DNA of 64,000 bases, taken from NCBI GenBank assembly GCA_016869765.1, contig VGES01000013.1, positions 1 through 64,000 on the forward strand, read 5' to 3'. Positions 14,020 to 60,947 of this stretch are shown here, piece by piece. Numbering within the stretch: the stretch's first letter is position 1; each line of letters opens with the position of its first letter. This DNA is from Alphaproteobacteria bacterium. Lineage in GTDB: Bacteria > Pseudomonadota > Alphaproteobacteria > SHVP01. Below the pieces are notes generated by a model. It ran no database searches. It was not told where the DNA came from and saw only the letters and a list, made by a program, of their open reading frames with translations. A program made the position numbers and the translations under genes.

Positions 14020-15471
14020 TCAGGGGCCCCTCGGCAGAAGGCCGGCAAACGTCGGCAACATCTGGTCGATCACCGCGGGCGCGACGAGCAATACGACGGT
14101 GGCGACCAGCGCCGGGAGCATAGCCGTCCATCCCAGGGGCAGACGTTGACGCAGGCTCGAGACATCGGGTCGGGCGAACAGCAGTTGCTGGCACATCGGC
14201 AGAACGGCGATCGCGGCGACGAGGGGGGCGAGGCCGAGCACGATCGGGCCCGTCACCGCGGTCGTTGCCGTCGTGAGGACGCCATACCAGGTACCGATGA
14301 AGCCGGCGGTCGGCGGCAGCGCCAGCAACGAGGCGGCGATCGCGAGCAGGCAACCGCTCAGCCAGGGCGTCCGGCTGCCTTCCCCGCGCAGGGTCGCGAT
14401 CGTCGGGCCGAGGCCGTCGGCCAGCAAGGCGACGACCGGCAGCAGCGCGAGGACGGCGAGCACGCCGGCCGCGAGGACGATCAGCGCGGCGAGGGTTCCG
14501 GCCTGGTGCGCGCTGAACAGCGTCACGGCGACCGCGATCGTCTGAACCGCGGGAAGCCCGAGCGCGCGCTCGGCGAGCGCTGCGCCACGCAGGCGAAGGG
14601 CCAAAACGAGCAGGGCCGCAATGGCCAGAGTGCCGATGACGTCGATGCCGCCGATCTCGCGCAGGGTGGCCGGCCCGATCACGTACAGGGTCGCTTTCGC
14701 AAATGGAATCGCGCCACCGATCAAGACGACGATCGTCGCGACGTAGATCTGGACCGGGACCTCGCTCCGGCCGAGCACCAAACTGCCGCGCAGGCCCGGC
14801 AGCAAGGCGAACCGCGTTCCGGCCAGGGCGAAGATCGCCAGGATGAGCCCCGCCACGTTGCGGTCGGTGGCGCCGGCGAAACTACCGCCGGGGCGAAACT
14901 CGACCGAGCCGGCGACGAGGAACGTCCAGGCTGCGGCCACCATGGCGAGAAACATCGCGGCGATCAGCAGCAACAGAATCGGATGCGTCGCCGTCTCCTC
15001 CTCGTTCCGGCTGGGCGCGAGCATGAGGCTGGTGGCGAGCAGCAGGCCGGCTTCGAAGGTGATCTGCGACAGCAGGTTGCCGGCGTACAGGCACCCGACC
15101 GCAGCCGCCATGCCGGCCGAGCCGCAGACGAAAAACCGGGTTGGGTGGCGCGGTCGGCGTGCGGCCGGCGCGGCCAGCGACCAGAAAACGGCGATCAACC
15201 AGGCGAACGAGGCGAGCAGGGCTCCGGTGGCGCCCACCGGCTCGCCGACCAGTCGAACCGGCACGCCAGCGAACAATGGAGCCAGGATCACGCCGAGCCA
15301 ATCGGCCGGATCGAGCATGGCGAGGATGGCGGCCGTGAGGAGCAACAGGACGACCGCCGAGATCAGCGCTCCCACGTCGCGCGCCAAGGGGTGTTGCGCC
15401 ACGACGAGCATCGCCACGGCCGCAAAAGCCGGTAAGGCCACCGCCGCGAACAGAAGCAAGTCGGGGGTCAT
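14020..15471 (-). CDS. Antiporter-like membrane subunit (NuoM/NuoN family), partly degenerate
   Basis: 483 aa, about 14 predicted helices, middle of the operon. A TM5-like glutamate is present in NLLSQITFEAGLLLATSLML. The TM7 motif reads FALAGTRFALLPGLRGSL, with arginine where Mrp/Nuo antiporter-like subunits have the key lysine and no PFH.WL. PPTAGFIGTWYGVLTTA matches the family GF.GK/GT loop. Start and stop are tightly packed: its ATG overlaps the stop of the MrpD-like gene by 4 bases. It probably sits beside the MrpD-like subunit in an ion-translocating membrane arm. Confidence 0.8.
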   Translation of the reverse strand: MTPDLLLFAAVALPAFAAVAMLVVAQHPLARDVGALISAVVLLLLTAAILAMLDPADWLGVILAPLFAGVPVRLVGEPVGATGALLASFAWLIAVFWSLAAPAARRPRHPTRFFVCGSAGMAAAVGCLYAGNLLSQITFEAGLLLATSLMLAPSRNEEETATHPILLLLIAAMFLAMVAAAWTFLVAGSVEFRPGGSFAGATDRNVAGLILAIFALAGTRFALLPGLRGSLVLGRSEVPVQIYVATIVVLIGGAIPFAKATLYVIGPATLREIGGIDVIGTLAIAALLVLALRLRGAALAERALGLPAVQTIAVAVTLFSAHQAGTLAALIVLAAGVLAVLALLPVVALLADGLGPTIATLRGEGSRTPWLSGCLLAIAASLLALPPTAGFIGTWYGVLTTATTAVTGPIVLGLAPLVAAIAVLPMCQQLLFARPDVSSLRQRLPLGWTAMLPALVATVVLLVAPAVIDQMLPTFAGLLPRGP

Positions 15472-16937
15472 GGCGGTCCACGCATCAGAAGTTTCGCGGC
15501 TTCGTCGGCGAGGCCGACGTAGAGCGCAGCGTTGAGCCCGAAATAGACCGTGGCCAGTCCAAACAGAGTGGCGGGCACGCTGAGCGCGAGCGGGAAGGGG
15601 ACCGGGCGTTCGATCGGCGCTACCGGGCCGAATAGGAGCCGCTGCGCGACGCGCGCGGCGGCAATCAGCGCGACTCCCGAGCTGAGGGCGACGAGGATCA
15701 GCGCGGCCCAGGCATCGCGCTCGATCATTCCGAGGGCGACGTGCCAGCGTCCGGCAAAGCCGACCGTGAGCGGGACGCCGGCAAACGCAAACAGCGCACA
15801 GGCCAGGGCGGCGGCGACCATCGGCGAGCGGCGACGCAAGGTGCCGAGCTGATCGAGCGCGGTCGGAAGTTGGGCGTGTTGCAGGCAGCCGATTGCGGCG
15901 ACCGCCGCGGTAACGGCCACGCCGTGCGCCACGATGACCGCCATTCCCGCCGTGGCACCGGCGAGATTGATCGCCCCAGCGCCGACGGCGACGTATCCAA
16001 GGTGCGCCGCGGCGAGCAGGGCGACGACCGGGCGGATGTCACGCTGAAGGGCCGCGAGCGCCGATGGGGCCAGGACGAACAACGCGGCGACCGCTGCCAG
16101 CCCCCAGGCGCCGTTGGCCGAAAGAAACGAGGGGCCGCCGCCGAGCACGGCCGTAGAAATGCGCAGCAACACATAGGCGATCGCGGTTGGCGCGATCCCG
16201 CCGACAACGGCCGCGATCGGCGCCGGTGCGTCGATGTAGGTGCGTGAGAGCCAGCCATGGAAGGGAAACAGACCGCCCTTGATCGCGAGCCCGAGGAGCA
16301 CCATCGCGGCGCCGATCGTGGTCGCGCGATCGTTGGCTCCCGCGAGACGACCCGCGAGATCGAGGAGGTCGACCGAACCTGCCCGTGCGTAGAGCATCGC
16401 GGTTCCCATCAACAGAAACGCCGTTCCGGTCGATTGAAATACCAGGGCGTGAAATGCCGTGACCAAGGAGCGCCGAATCCGACCCGCCGCGATCAGGCCG
16501 CACGTCGCCAGCGTCATGATCTCGATCAGGATGATCAGCGAGAACAGGTCGTGGCTCAGGGCGATTCCGTTGATCGCCCCGAGGAAGGCGAGGGCGAGCG
16601 CGCTCTGGAGAGCGGTGCGGCCGGGCGGGTGAGCCGCGCTGTCCCGATGCAACAGGGGCAGCAGCACGGCGGCCACGAGGTTGGTCACGATCAGCGCCAG
16701 AGCGCTCAGGCCGTCGGCGCGGAAGACGACCCCCGACGGAGCCGCCCAATCGCCGAACGCGTACGCCAATGGCCCGACACGCAGCACATGGTCGAGCACG
16801 AGGGCGGCGACGCCCAGCGAGACCCACGGCGCCACCAGACCGAACAACCGCACCAATGGGCGTATCGGCAACAACAAACAGAGCGCGGCTGCAGTAAACG
16901 GCAACAGGACCAGAAGCGCAGGAACGTGGGTCATCAC
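15468..16937 (-). CDS. MrpD/NuoN-like proton-channel subunit
   Basis: 489 aa, the best-conserved antiporter-like subunit of this operon. It keeps the TM5 glutamate (SLIILIEIMTLATCGLIA) and the TM7 lysine motif IKGGLFPFHGWLSRTYIDAP, which are the proton-path residues of MrpD, MbhH and NuoL/M/N. The start is GTG at 16937, overlapping the upstream stop (GTGA), with an ATG as the next codon. It should carry the working ion channel of the complex. By family it could be part of a Na+/H+ antiporter or of a redox-driven pump; the operon holds no obvious redox subunit. Confidence 0.88.
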   Translation of the reverse strand: MMTHVPALLVLLPFTAAALCLLLPIRPLVRLFGLVAPWVSLGVAALVLDHVLRVGPLAYAFGDWAAPSGVVFRADGLSALALIVTNLVAAVLLPLLHRDSAAHPPGRTALQSALALAFLGAINGIALSHDLFSLIILIEIMTLATCGLIAAGRIRRSLVTAFHALVFQSTGTAFLLMGTAMLYARAGSVDLLDLAGRLAGANDRATTIGAAMVLLGLAIKGGLFPFHGWLSRTYIDAPAPIAAVVGGIAPTAIAYVLLRISTAVLGGGPSFLSANGAWGLAAVAALFVLAPSALAALQRDIRPVVALLAAAHLGYVAVGAGAINLAGATAGMAVIVAHGVAVTAAVAAIGCLQHAQLPTALDQLGTLRRRSPMVAAALACALFAFAGVPLTVGFAGRWHVALGMIERDAWAALILVALSSGVALIAAARVAQRLLFGPVAPIERPVPFPLALSVPATLFGLATVYFGLNAALYVGLADEAAKLLMRGPP

Positions 16938-57743: not shown

Positions 57744-59174
57744 ATGGGAAACGTCCGTGCACCGACCCGTGAGGGCGACGTGAGCCAGATGTTGGCCGCC
57801 GAGATGGTGGCAACGCCGTTCCATGCCATTCCACGGGCTTGCATCGACGCCGCCCGGAATCTGCTGATCGACCACGTCGGTATCACCTACATGGGTGCCG
57901 CGCATATTGGCCGCGAACTTATCGCCTACGCCAAGGATATTGGCGGGCGACCCGATGCCGTTCTCATCGGCGACGGTGCGAGACTCCCGGCTGAAGTCGC
58001 GGCCGGCATCAACGGCCATTTCTGCCGGTCGACCAATTTCGAAGATACCGGGCCCGGTCGCCACATTGGGCCGCTGGCCGTGCATACGGCGTTGGCGGTC
58101 GGTCAGCGAAGGCACGCGTCGGGGCGCGATGTCCTCGCCGCCGTGGCTCTTGGCTATGTGCTGTGTGGGCGATTTCATTTTGCCAGACGAACCGGGCCGA
58201 TTAGCGGAACTCCGGAGCACCGGATGGTGGCCGCGGCGATCGCTTCGCGCTTGCTCGGCTACGACCAGGCAACGACGGCGACGGCGCTGAACCTCGCCTG
58301 GGAGCTGCCGCATCGCGAGCCGATGCCCGGACAGCTCGCCGCCCACGGCAGCAATTTTGTCACCAAACGAATATCGCCGCTTGGCACCCCGTCTGCGCTC
58401 GCGACCCCCTTGTACCATGCACGCGGCGGGGTGCAGGCGGCGCTGATGGCCGGTCATGGGTTCAAGAGCGTGCCAAACGAGATTGGCCAGTTTCTTCACG
58501 ACTACGATGTCCCCGCGCTAACCGTCGACCCGACGCCATTTCGTTTTCTGCACGGCGAAATGGAACTGAAGCCCTGGATCTGCAGTCGGCAGAGCCAGAC
58601 TGGAATTCAGGCCCTGTCGGACTTGCTCGACGAACACGCGATCGATGCCGGCAGGGTCACTGCCCTGCGACTTCGATTGACCTTCATGTCGCTGGTACCG
58701 CATCAGATCGATCCCGCGCCGGACGACTACTGGCAGGCGATCTACTCGACGAATTGGTGCGCGGCGATGGTGCTGCAGCGCATTGCGGCAGGCCCGCAAT
58801 GGGTGTCACCGGAGAGAATTGCCGACCCGGTCAGTCGCCGCCTGGCGGCGATGGTCGAGGTGCTCGAAGACCCGGAATCATCGCAGATCTATCGCGACCG
58901 TCTGACCAAGGGTCGGGCAGCGGTGCGGGGTACCGCAGAAATCGAAGCAGGGGGGCGGACCTATCGCGCGATACGGACCCTGGGCGAGACTTATGGCAGC
59001 CCCGGCAAAGAAATGACTGCGGCGATGGTCGAGGCGAAGTTCCACGAATGCGTCGCGCCATCGCTCGGTCGCGATCGCGCGAGTCAGCTGCTTCAGTCAC
59101 TGCGAAGCATAGAGGACATCAACGACGTCAATGACGTCGCGGCCCTGATGACGTCCGACCGCCGCCGGGCGTGA
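57744..59174 (+). CDS. MmgE/PrpD family protein, copy 2
   Basis: 476 aa from the ATG at 57744. It is a paralogue of the preceding gene, with matching blocks LLIDHVGITYMGAAHIGRELI, INGHFCRSTNFEDTGPGRHIGPLAVHTALAVGQRRHASGRDVL and ELKPWICSRQSQTGIQAL. Some positions differ near the active-site loop, so the two may act on related substrates or form a heteromer. The stop is followed by 48 bases and then the convergent tandem hydrolase. Confidence 0.87.
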   Translation: MGNVRAPTREGDVSQMLAAEMVATPFHAIPRACIDAARNLLIDHVGITYMGAAHIGRELIAYAKDIGGRPDAVLIGDGARLPAEVAAGINGHFCRSTNFEDTGPGRHIGPLAVHTALAVGQRRHASGRDVLAAVALGYVLCGRFHFARRTGPISGTPEHRMVAAAIASRLLGYDQATTATALNLAWELPHREPMPGQLAAHGSNFVTKRISPLGTPSALATPLYHARGGVQAALMAGHGFKSVPNEIGQFLHDYDVPALTVDPTPFRFLHGEMELKPWICSRQSQTGIQALSDLLDEHAIDAGRVTALRLRLTFMSLVPHQIDPAPDDYWQAIYSTNWCAAMVLQRIAAGPQWVSPERIADPVSRRLAAMVEVLEDPESSQIYRDRLTKGRAAVRGTAEIEAGGRTYRAIRTLGETYGSPGKEMTAAMVEAKFHECVAPSLGRDRASQLLQSLRSIEDINDVNDVAALMTSDRRRA

Positions 59175-59222: not shown

Positions 59223-60947
59223 CTATTTGCGTCCCGTGGCGGGTAAGTCGGCCGCGTCGAGGAAGTCTTGCAACACCTTGCAGACCTCGTCGGGGACAAT
59301 GTCGAGAAAGCCGTGCCCATGCTTCGCGATGTCGTGTAGGCGGCCGTTCCTCGCAAGCGCGAGCCCACGCGGCGTTTGAATGACCAAGTCGTCGTTCGGA
59401 TTGATGATCAGGATGGGTTGCGTCACCTGGGGCAGGTGAGCCCGCAGATCGTAGCGGAACGCCGCCCGGTAGCTCCACCACGCCGCCGGACCGCCGCGCA
59501 GGCTTTCGGAAAAATTTCTGACGAAGATTTGCTCCGGCACATTGGGTCCATATAGCTCGCGTGCCGCGATCCAGCCCTTCGCGAGGTGGCTGCCATCGCG
59601 CAGGATCGGCTTTGGCTGGTAGCGCAGGCGGAACTCGGCCAATTCGTTTTCGGTGAAGACCGGGCAGGAGATTTGGACGATCCGGCGCACCAATTCGGGC
59701 CGCTGCAGCGCGAGCGCAACAGCTGTCAGGGCGCCCGTGTGGTAGCCCAGGACATCGATCTGCTTGAAACCCAGGGCATCGATGAACTTGGCCATTGCCG
59801 CGGCGAAATCGTCGATCTCGATTGGCGCGTACGGCGCTTCTGATTCGCCGCATCCCGGCGTGTCGGGCGCCACTGCGATCCGATCCTTGCCGATGATCGG
59901 CAGGATCGCTTCGTAGATTCGACCCGACCGCGGGCTCATGTGAAACATGACCAGCGGTGTCACCGAGGGCGCCGCCGGTCGCACGATACGGTAGTGCAGT
60001 TGTCCGTAGGGTCCGTCCCAGAAGTCGCGGTGAACGACACGAGGTCTCTTGGTCGGCGCCGGCGGCACCGGCGAACGCACGGTCCGGTTCGGGCGATCAT
60101 CGGCCAGGCCGTCCAGGAACTCGCGCAGCAGCGTCGCGACGTGGGCGGTGTGAACGTCGAGAAAACCGTGCGCATAGTCCGGCAACTCGACGAACTTGCC
60201 GTTCTTGAGGTACTGCCGCGCCCGTTGGGTTGGCGTCCAAAGATCGTCGCGCGGGCACAGAATCATCACCGGCTGTTCGACTTTGGGCAGTTCGCGCGCA
60301 TGCTGATAACGGAACGCGGCCTGGTGTCCCCACCACGCGGTTGCGCCGCCGCGCAGCGCCTCACACGCCTCGCGATGTACGAATATCGGCGGCGCCGCTT
60401 TATCCTTCCACCGCCAACTGAATTTCCTGAGCAGATGAGAACCGTCCGCGCCCGTCTCCTCCGCGGCCGGCGTGCCCATCGTCTGATACTGAATCCTGAG
60501 TTCTTCGTCAGAGTAGGCCGGTGCGGAGATGAGCACGACACGACGAACCTGATCGGGTCGCTGCTGGGCGATCTCGACGCAGGTCCGCGAACCGGTGTGA
60601 TAGCCGATGACGTCGAATTGCTTGATGCCGAGGTGGTCTACCAATTCACCCATGGTAGCGGCGTAATCCGCGATCGACGGCGCAGCATCGGGCGGATCGG
60701 ACTCGCCGAAACCCGGTGTATCGGCCGCGATGGTGATTCTGTCCTTGCCCATCTCGGCAACCAGTTGGGCGTAGACTCGCCCGGAATTCGGGCTGAGGTG
60801 AAAGCAGAGGAGCGGAATCCTTTCCGGATCGGGCGGTTGGGCGATCCGGTAGTGCAGCTGACCGAAGCGAGCCTCCATATAGGCGCGGCGGACGCCGAAG
60901 GGCGTTCGCCAGAAACGCATGTCATAGTGATGCTGGATGTCGCTCAT
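59223..60947 (-). CDS. Tandem-duplicated alpha/beta hydrolase with GYHTG nucleophile elbows
   Basis: 574 aa from the ATG at 60947, made of two homologous alpha/beta-hydrolase domains (about 1-285 and 300-574). The elbow GxSxG is GYHTG in both: residues 115-119 (His117) and 401-405 (His403), so the nucleophile serine is histidine twice. The Asp and His partners remain: CPRDDLWTPT with DYAHGFLDVH in the first half, NPNDDLVIQT with KHGHGFLDIV in the second. ADTPGFGESDPPDAAPSIADYAATMGELVDHLGIKQ is a standard hydrolase strand pattern. The reaction is unknown, possibly a lyase or a non-serine hydrolase. It is convergent with the PrpD genes. Confidence 0.9.
   Translation of the reverse strand: MSDIQHHYDMRFWRTPFGVRRAYMEARFGQLHYRIAQPPDPERIPLLCFHLSPNSGRVYAQLVAEMGKDRITIAADTPGFGESDPPDAAPSIADYAATMGELVDHLGIKQFDVIGYHTGSRTCVEIAQQRPDQVRRVVLISAPAYSDEELRIQYQTMGTPAAEETGADGSHLLRKFSWRWKDKAAPPIFVHREACEALRGGATAWWGHQAAFRYQHARELPKVEQPVMILCPRDDLWTPTQRARQYLKNGKFVELPDYAHGFLDVHTAHVATLLREFLDGLADDRPNRTVRSPVPPAPTKRPRVVHRDFWDGPYGQLHYRIVRPAAPSVTPLVMFHMSPRSGRIYEAILPIIGKDRIAVAPDTPGCGESEAPYAPIEIDDFAAAMAKFIDALGFKQIDVLGYHTGALTAVALALQRPELVRRIVQISCPVFTENELAEFRLRYQPKPILRDGSHLAKGWIAARELYGPNVPEQIFVRNFSESLRGGPAAWWSYRAAFRYDLRAHLPQVTQPILIINPNDDLVIQTPRGLALARNGRLHDIAKHGHGFLDIVPDEVCKVLQDFLDAADLPATGRK

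Follow-up and report, generated by a model that had tools for sequence, protein, structure and literature searches.

Histidine at both nucleophile elbows of a tandem alpha/beta-hydrolase: a member of an apparently undescribed GxHTG family

The window, that is, the whole stretch of alphaproteobacterial DNA analyzed here (64,000 nucleotides), carries on its minus strand a gene (59226..60947, followed by the stop codon TAG at 59223-59225) for a 574-amino-acid tandem alpha/beta-hydrolase in which a histidine occupies the nucleophile elbow of both halves. The protein turned out to share the elbow G-x-H-T-G with a family that is apparently undescribed so far and represents a variant of a known fold. 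Judging from sequence, we consider the chances about even that it is a tandem member of a catabolic GxHTG family in which the elbow His works as a general acid/base, Ser52 and Thr118 form an anion hole, and no covalent serine intermediate arises. A broader proposal, namely, that a large family has gone unrecognized whose elbow His is catalytic, as a base or as a covalent nucleophile, and which has given up the Ser-His-Asp triad, so that Ser, Cys, and Asp would be joined by a fourth elbow chemistry, could in our estimate equally well hold or fail. Few enzyme folds have been studied as closely as that of the alpha/beta-hydrolases, which are usually taught to have Ser, Cys, or Asp as the nucleophile. 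The known chemistry of the fold would be extended by a widespread family that keeps a near-invariant His-Thr at the elbow, can do without the base, and has dozens of paralogues in one genome. Many "alpha/beta hydrolase" genes on catabolic plasmids would have to be re-annotated, and predictions for GxHTG proteins would go wrong with tools built on a Ser nucleophile.

The tandem organization was evident from the open frame, from two stretches matching PF00561, and from the two domains in the AlphaFold model. The N-terminal domain (residues 1-287, 60087..60947) and the C-terminal domain (about residues 290-574, 59226..60080) align with 43% identity, and each contains the elbow GYHTG (residues 115-119, 60591..60605, and residues 401-405, 59733..59747, respectively; all features of this gene lie on the minus strand). 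The preliminary description had read His117 and His403 at these elbows, which was borne out by their CAC codons (60597-60599 and 59739-59741) and agrees with both the models and an alignment to AidH. In the AlphaFold models, H117 lies in the turn between core strand five (111-116) and helix 118-129, and H403 lies in the turn between core strand five (397-402) and helix 404-415. The turn after core strand five is the nucleophile elbow, and that is where the models place both residues; in the alignment to AidH, GYHTG falls over its GxSxG, with H117 on the AidH Ser. The models were built from shallow alignments. That of the N-half had a pTM of 0.71, with core pLDDT mostly 75-92 and a poor cap region, and the blocks around the elbow His were modeled with good local confidence (pLDDT of 86-92 for the N-half and 75-93 for the C-half). 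The full-length model, with a pTM of 0.49, does not fix how the halves are placed relative to each other.

The HLSP motif of the N-half, with H50 and S52 (60789..60800), is by homology an oxyanion/halide-site loop, and HMSP, with H336 and S338 (59931..59942), occupies the same motif position in the C-half. The Asp of HGFLD had at first been taken as the triad acid, a reading that did not stand: the GxxDxxxP motif places the acid at D235 in the N-half (D234/D235, 60243..60248) and at D520, within the counterpart pair D519/D520 (59388..59393), in the C-half. The canonical base is H260, which lies within HGFLD (60168..60170), with H545 as its counterpart (59313..59315). Both the acid and the base of an alpha/beta-hydrolase triad are present in the window protein (D235/H260 and D520/H545), and both elbows have His where Ser, Asp, or Cys is expected. 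A Ser, Asp, or Cys elbow is usual in active alpha/beta-hydrolases and is not a requirement of the fold.

Database comparisons placed the protein in the fold at large. Pfam returned the general alpha/beta-hydrolase fold alone (PF00561, 100.9 bits against a cut-off of 25.8, E=1e-28, in the two stretches). NCBIfam returned many matches, those shown all far under cut-off and with the PcaD models on top (TIGR02427, 110.9 bits against a cut-off of 255.85). Foldseek gave generic hydrolases only (CesB, PcaD, and HaloTag), and the nearest solved structures by profile were Est1, HsaD/BphD, a chloroperoxidase, and PcaD. PcaD, a 3-oxoadipate enol-lactonase, and the meta-cleavage-product (C-C) hydrolases BphD/HsaD, which were among the top sub-cutoff NCBIfam and PDB profile matches, share the fold, the cap layout, and a catabolic role with the window protein, but they are all GxSxG enzymes with a conserved Ser-His-Asp, unlike the GxHTG proteins. 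No family with a GxHTG elbow was found in Pfam or NCBIfam, and in the residue-level PDB alignments inspected the elbow residue was Ser, Asp, or an engineered one, and in none of them His. Searches of the open-access full-text literature found nothing on GxHTG elbow strings or on a His nucleophile in this fold, with the exception of one paper on the dioxygenase HOD. Hence the family appears to be undescribed; a characterized family with the same elbow, which would have spoken against the preliminary description, did not come to light.

Regions were sampled from the genome itself, from nine further genomes of its bacterial family, and from outside that family; a profile was built from them, and the elbow residues of each domain were recorded. 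All loci together yielded 153 distinct, full-enough GxHTG domains, 41 domains with other elbows, and 12 with GxSxG; the members came from the genome itself, from its bacterial family and others in the class, and from plasmids of alpha- and betaproteobacteria and of actinomycetes. On this alignment, the occurrence of G-x-H-T-G at the same position in 153 distinct domains is far beyond chance, and the GxHTG elbow is to be read as the signature of the whole family, not as an oddity of the window gene. In the closer set (113 domains, nearly all from the same bacterial family), H117 was conserved in 99% and T118 in 98%, as were H50 (98%), R70 (99%), D76 (99%), and D234 (100%). The motif has not been lost in close relatives. 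The full GxHTG set retained H50 in 150/150, D76 in 152/152, and H32 in 147/150 domains, with Ser or Thr at position 52 in 145/150. An alignment of 17 deeply diverged members (24-48% identity to the first) left G, H32, H50, S55, D76, G, S, and G-x-H-T-G invariant. The marks of the family, as they emerge from these alignments, are the G-x-H-T-G elbow, HxSP, and the cap motif G-S-H-L-x3-W. In the window protein they are represented by GxHTG in both halves, H50, S/T52, D76, and a cap motif that includes H171 and, at the W/F176 position, F176 in the N-half and W459 in the C-half. With the deep profile, GxHTG domains and their odd derivatives mostly scored >125 bits and GxSxG domains <=112, while one partial HTG domain scored 89.

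The triad behaved otherwise. The canonical acid Asp was found in 115/153 GxHTG domains (lost in 25%) and the canonical base His in 62/153 (lost in 59%); in the GxSxG relatives, each was present in 11/12. That the triad retains its Asp and His is thus correct for the window protein and its GYHTG subgroup and does not extend to the family. Because the His-Thr stays while acid and base come and go, the signature of the family is the elbow His-Thr and not the triad; at the level of the alignment, the counts show the His-Thr to be the conserved core, with the classical base and acid optional. When x was Tyr (GYHTG), acid and base were both kept in 40/45 domains, and when x was Asp (GDHTG), the base was absent in 38/39. 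This covariation of x with the base is suggestive, the association resting on 5 changes on the tree and being not significant in an independent-pairs test.

The gene context pointed to catabolism. In the window, two MmgE/PrpD-family genes on the plus strand (PF03972/PF19305; 56326..57708 and 57789..59174, the start codon of the second being approximate) are neighbors of the hydrolase gene, the second lying tail-to-tail with it. An MFS transporter gene (PF07690; 61086..62336, minus strand) is directly upstream of the hydrolase gene on the same strand, and one for an oligopeptide-type SBP_bac_5 solute-binding protein (PF00496; 62618..63913, plus strand) lies near the window end. Just beyond the window (contig C13, 66282-68650), a single alpha/beta-hydrolase with the elbow GTQTG has a 16-base overlap with a third MmgE/PrpD gene (L129:14283-15170 and 15155-16651), followed by one more PrpD gene and a second SBP_bac_5; the window end therefore belongs to a larger PrpD-hydrolase-transporter cluster. 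No PrpD genes were found near the paralogues examined, and the Pfam tallies of 95 and 31 neighbors contained no constant operon partner from which the reaction could be read. Partners present in small numbers in the tallies were SDR, methyltransferase, CN_hydrolase, SBP_bac_5, and acyl-CoA dehydrogenase. Elsewhere, a Shinella member had an Asp/Glu racemase and an aldehyde dehydrogenase (Aldedh) as neighbors, Variovorax and Comamonas members had acyl-CoA dehydrogenase, amidohydrolase, and AMP-ligase, and those of Sphingomonas JE1 and Sphingobium TomTYG65 had isochorismatase and polysaccharide-deacetylase pairs with CoA-transferase, HMG-CoA lyase, and LeuCD. GxHTG genes sit in catabolic, yet varied, contexts. 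N-formylmaleamate deformylase NicD, a Ser enzyme, is an alpha/beta-hydrolase that works with a maleate isomerase (of the Asp/Glu racemase superfamily) and a maleamate amidohydrolase, and like neighbors occur beside some GxHTG genes; this likeness is one of gene context only and concerns subfamilies other than that of the window protein.

We propose that the GxHTG proteins are catabolic enzymes for diverse small organic compounds in which the elbow His would be the catalytic group. Its imidazole, standing in place of the Ser hydroxyl, would act as a general base or acid on water or the substrate while Ser52 and Thr118 would hold the anionic oxygen, so that no covalent serine-type intermediate would form. 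The dioxygenase HOD offers a precedent, since its nucleophile is dispensable and its elbow residue tunes the active site (PMC10548524). In the GYHTG subgroup, H260-D235 would stay as a second acid/base pair next to H117, and in the GDHTG subgroup, the Asp preceding the elbow His may assume the partner role. Each half may form an active site similar to that of the other, or the pair may amount to an internal pseudo-dimer. Given the gene context, the most likely reaction type is one in which an organic acid or amide is hydrolyzed or cleaved at a C-N, C-O, or activated C-C bond. Haloalkane and fluoroacetate dehalogenases resemble the GxHTG proteins in having a non-serine elbow, with an HxxP loop and the nucleophile+1 residue at the anion site. 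We take the HLSP/HMSP loop to be the counterpart of HGNP in haloalkane dehalogenase, and S52 and T118 presumably correspond to the positions that bind halide or oxyanion there. The dehalogenases, however, use an Asp nucleophile (GxDxG) with a conserved base His, and the window protein has His at that position.

In haloalkane dehalogenase, the Asp forms a covalent intermediate resolved by water, and H117 might likewise attack the substrate carbonyl, forming an acyl- or alkyl-imidazole intermediate to be resolved by water. The His stands exactly at the nucleophile position, and S/T52 and T118 are conserved on the oxyanion side, yet resolving the intermediate needs a base, which is the very residue missing in 59% of the domains, and the literature searched offered no precedent in this fold; we regard a covalent His nucleophile as unlikely.

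Non-hydrolytic chemistry (that of a lyase, decarboxylase, isomerase, or cofactor-free oxygenase), with H117 and H260-D235 as an acid/base pair, also seems rather improbable, although the same fold carries out oxygenation in HOD, where the nucleophile is dispensable and the elbow residue tunes the active site (PMC10548524). The cofactor-free dioxygenases HOD, QDO, and AqdC have Ser or Ala at an elbow that provides no essential nucleophile, but they require a His-Asp dyad (PMC10548524), which is not conserved in the GxHTG family and is absent from most of its members. The MmgE/PrpD, LeuCD, HMG-CoA lyase, and Asp/Glu racemase families among the neighbors would suit such chemistry; the contexts nevertheless vary from member to member, so that no single reaction is implied for the family.

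We give a slim chance to an alternative related to one raised in the preliminary description, in which Thr118/Thr404 would be the nucleophile or would supply the main catalytic hydroxyl and H117 would serve it as base. T118 was kept in 14 single-domain relatives without the His (GIFTG, GRATG, GFATG, GVRTG, GSMTG, and others), while the His without the Thr occurred in only 2 domains, and Thr118 may for this reason be the residue that matters more. The nucleophile+1 residue, however, normally serves the oxyanion hole through its backbone NH and is not positioned in line for attack. Elbows with neither Ser nor His, such as GIFTG, GRATG, GFATG, GAEIG, and GEAVG (L083, L110, L153, L045, L177, and L159), possibly represent further shifts of function.

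That the GxHTG proteins have lost hydrolysis and serve in ligand binding or regulation is very improbable. Base and acid are gone in many members, as expected of non-catalytic binding proteins, and the C-halves of a second tandem branch have no GxHTG elbow altogether, but the elbow His-Thr and the active-site loops are strictly conserved over deep divergence, and the operon positions are typical of enzymes. A metal site formed by H117, H260, and D235 is weakened as an idea by the absence of H260 and D235 in many members. The preliminary description had argued for a conserved function rather than decay, and rightly so: H117/T118 is invariant over the 153 domains, dozens of paralogues are intact, and close pairs (two paralogue pairs left out) gave dN/dS of 0.03-0.17, values indicative of purifying selection though rough because dS was high. 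The intact frame, a dN/dS of about 0.1, and the conservation across the family rule out a pseudogene.

The identical His in the two halves had been presented as a replacement in each. In a maximum-likelihood tree computed from 142 domains after the elbow columns had been taken out (a quick method, with some inner branches weak), the window protein's own branch formed a clade (SH-aLRT 100), and N-halves and C-halves fell mostly into separate groups. Since single-domain GxHTG proteins are widespread and the halves lie mostly apart, the His in both probably goes back to a single GxHTG ancestor that existed before the duplication, which makes independent replacement superfluous. A relative from Lake Baikal carries the halves as separate neighboring genes that overlap (278 and 269 amino acids), and the tree and these split genes are together most simply read as a His elbow that predates the fusion.

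The genome itself (3.99 Mb) held 47 GxHTG domains in 37 genes, ten of which had HTG in both halves; the accompanying tally of Ser-type hydrolases is incomplete, covering only the candidates of one search. The paralogues have expanded massively over contigs C10, C23, C25, C36, C45, C54, and others (L037-L056), with a run of four adjacent GxHTG genes on C10 (55616-61605). The second, divergent tandem branch consists of frames of about 560-725 amino acids (L039, L048, L050, L052, L053, L154, L155, L157, and L158) in which the N-half is mostly GxHTG and the C-half elbow is degenerate (GRGTG, GVGVG, GQGGG, and similar). A 573-amino-acid tandem hydrolase of Sphingomonas JE1 (L195:14135-15856) and Sphingobium TomTYG65 (L196:14135-15856) has ATHTS at the N-half elbow, with the His-Thr retained and both flanking glycines replaced.

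In a class-wide sample, 27/240 genomes had matches at E<=1e-25, the stronger ones mostly GxHTG and the weakest GxSxG by elbow. Members on named plasmids were found in Streptomyces, Rhodococcus, Shinella, Variovorax, Comamonas, Sphingomonas, Sphingobium, Antarctobacter, and Azospirillum, where their annotation says no more than alpha/beta hydrolase or hypothetical. Among those in compact clusters are a GSHTG gene on plasmid pJE1 of Sphingomonas sp. JE1 and a GTHTG gene of Comamonas endophytica. The GHHTG genes of the Streptomyces NBC_01643 plasmid (L191) and of Rhodococcus YL-1 pYLL1 (L192) lie near IS elements, and their 47-51% identity to a proteobacterial member (L109), on actinomycete plasmids, suggests horizontal spread.
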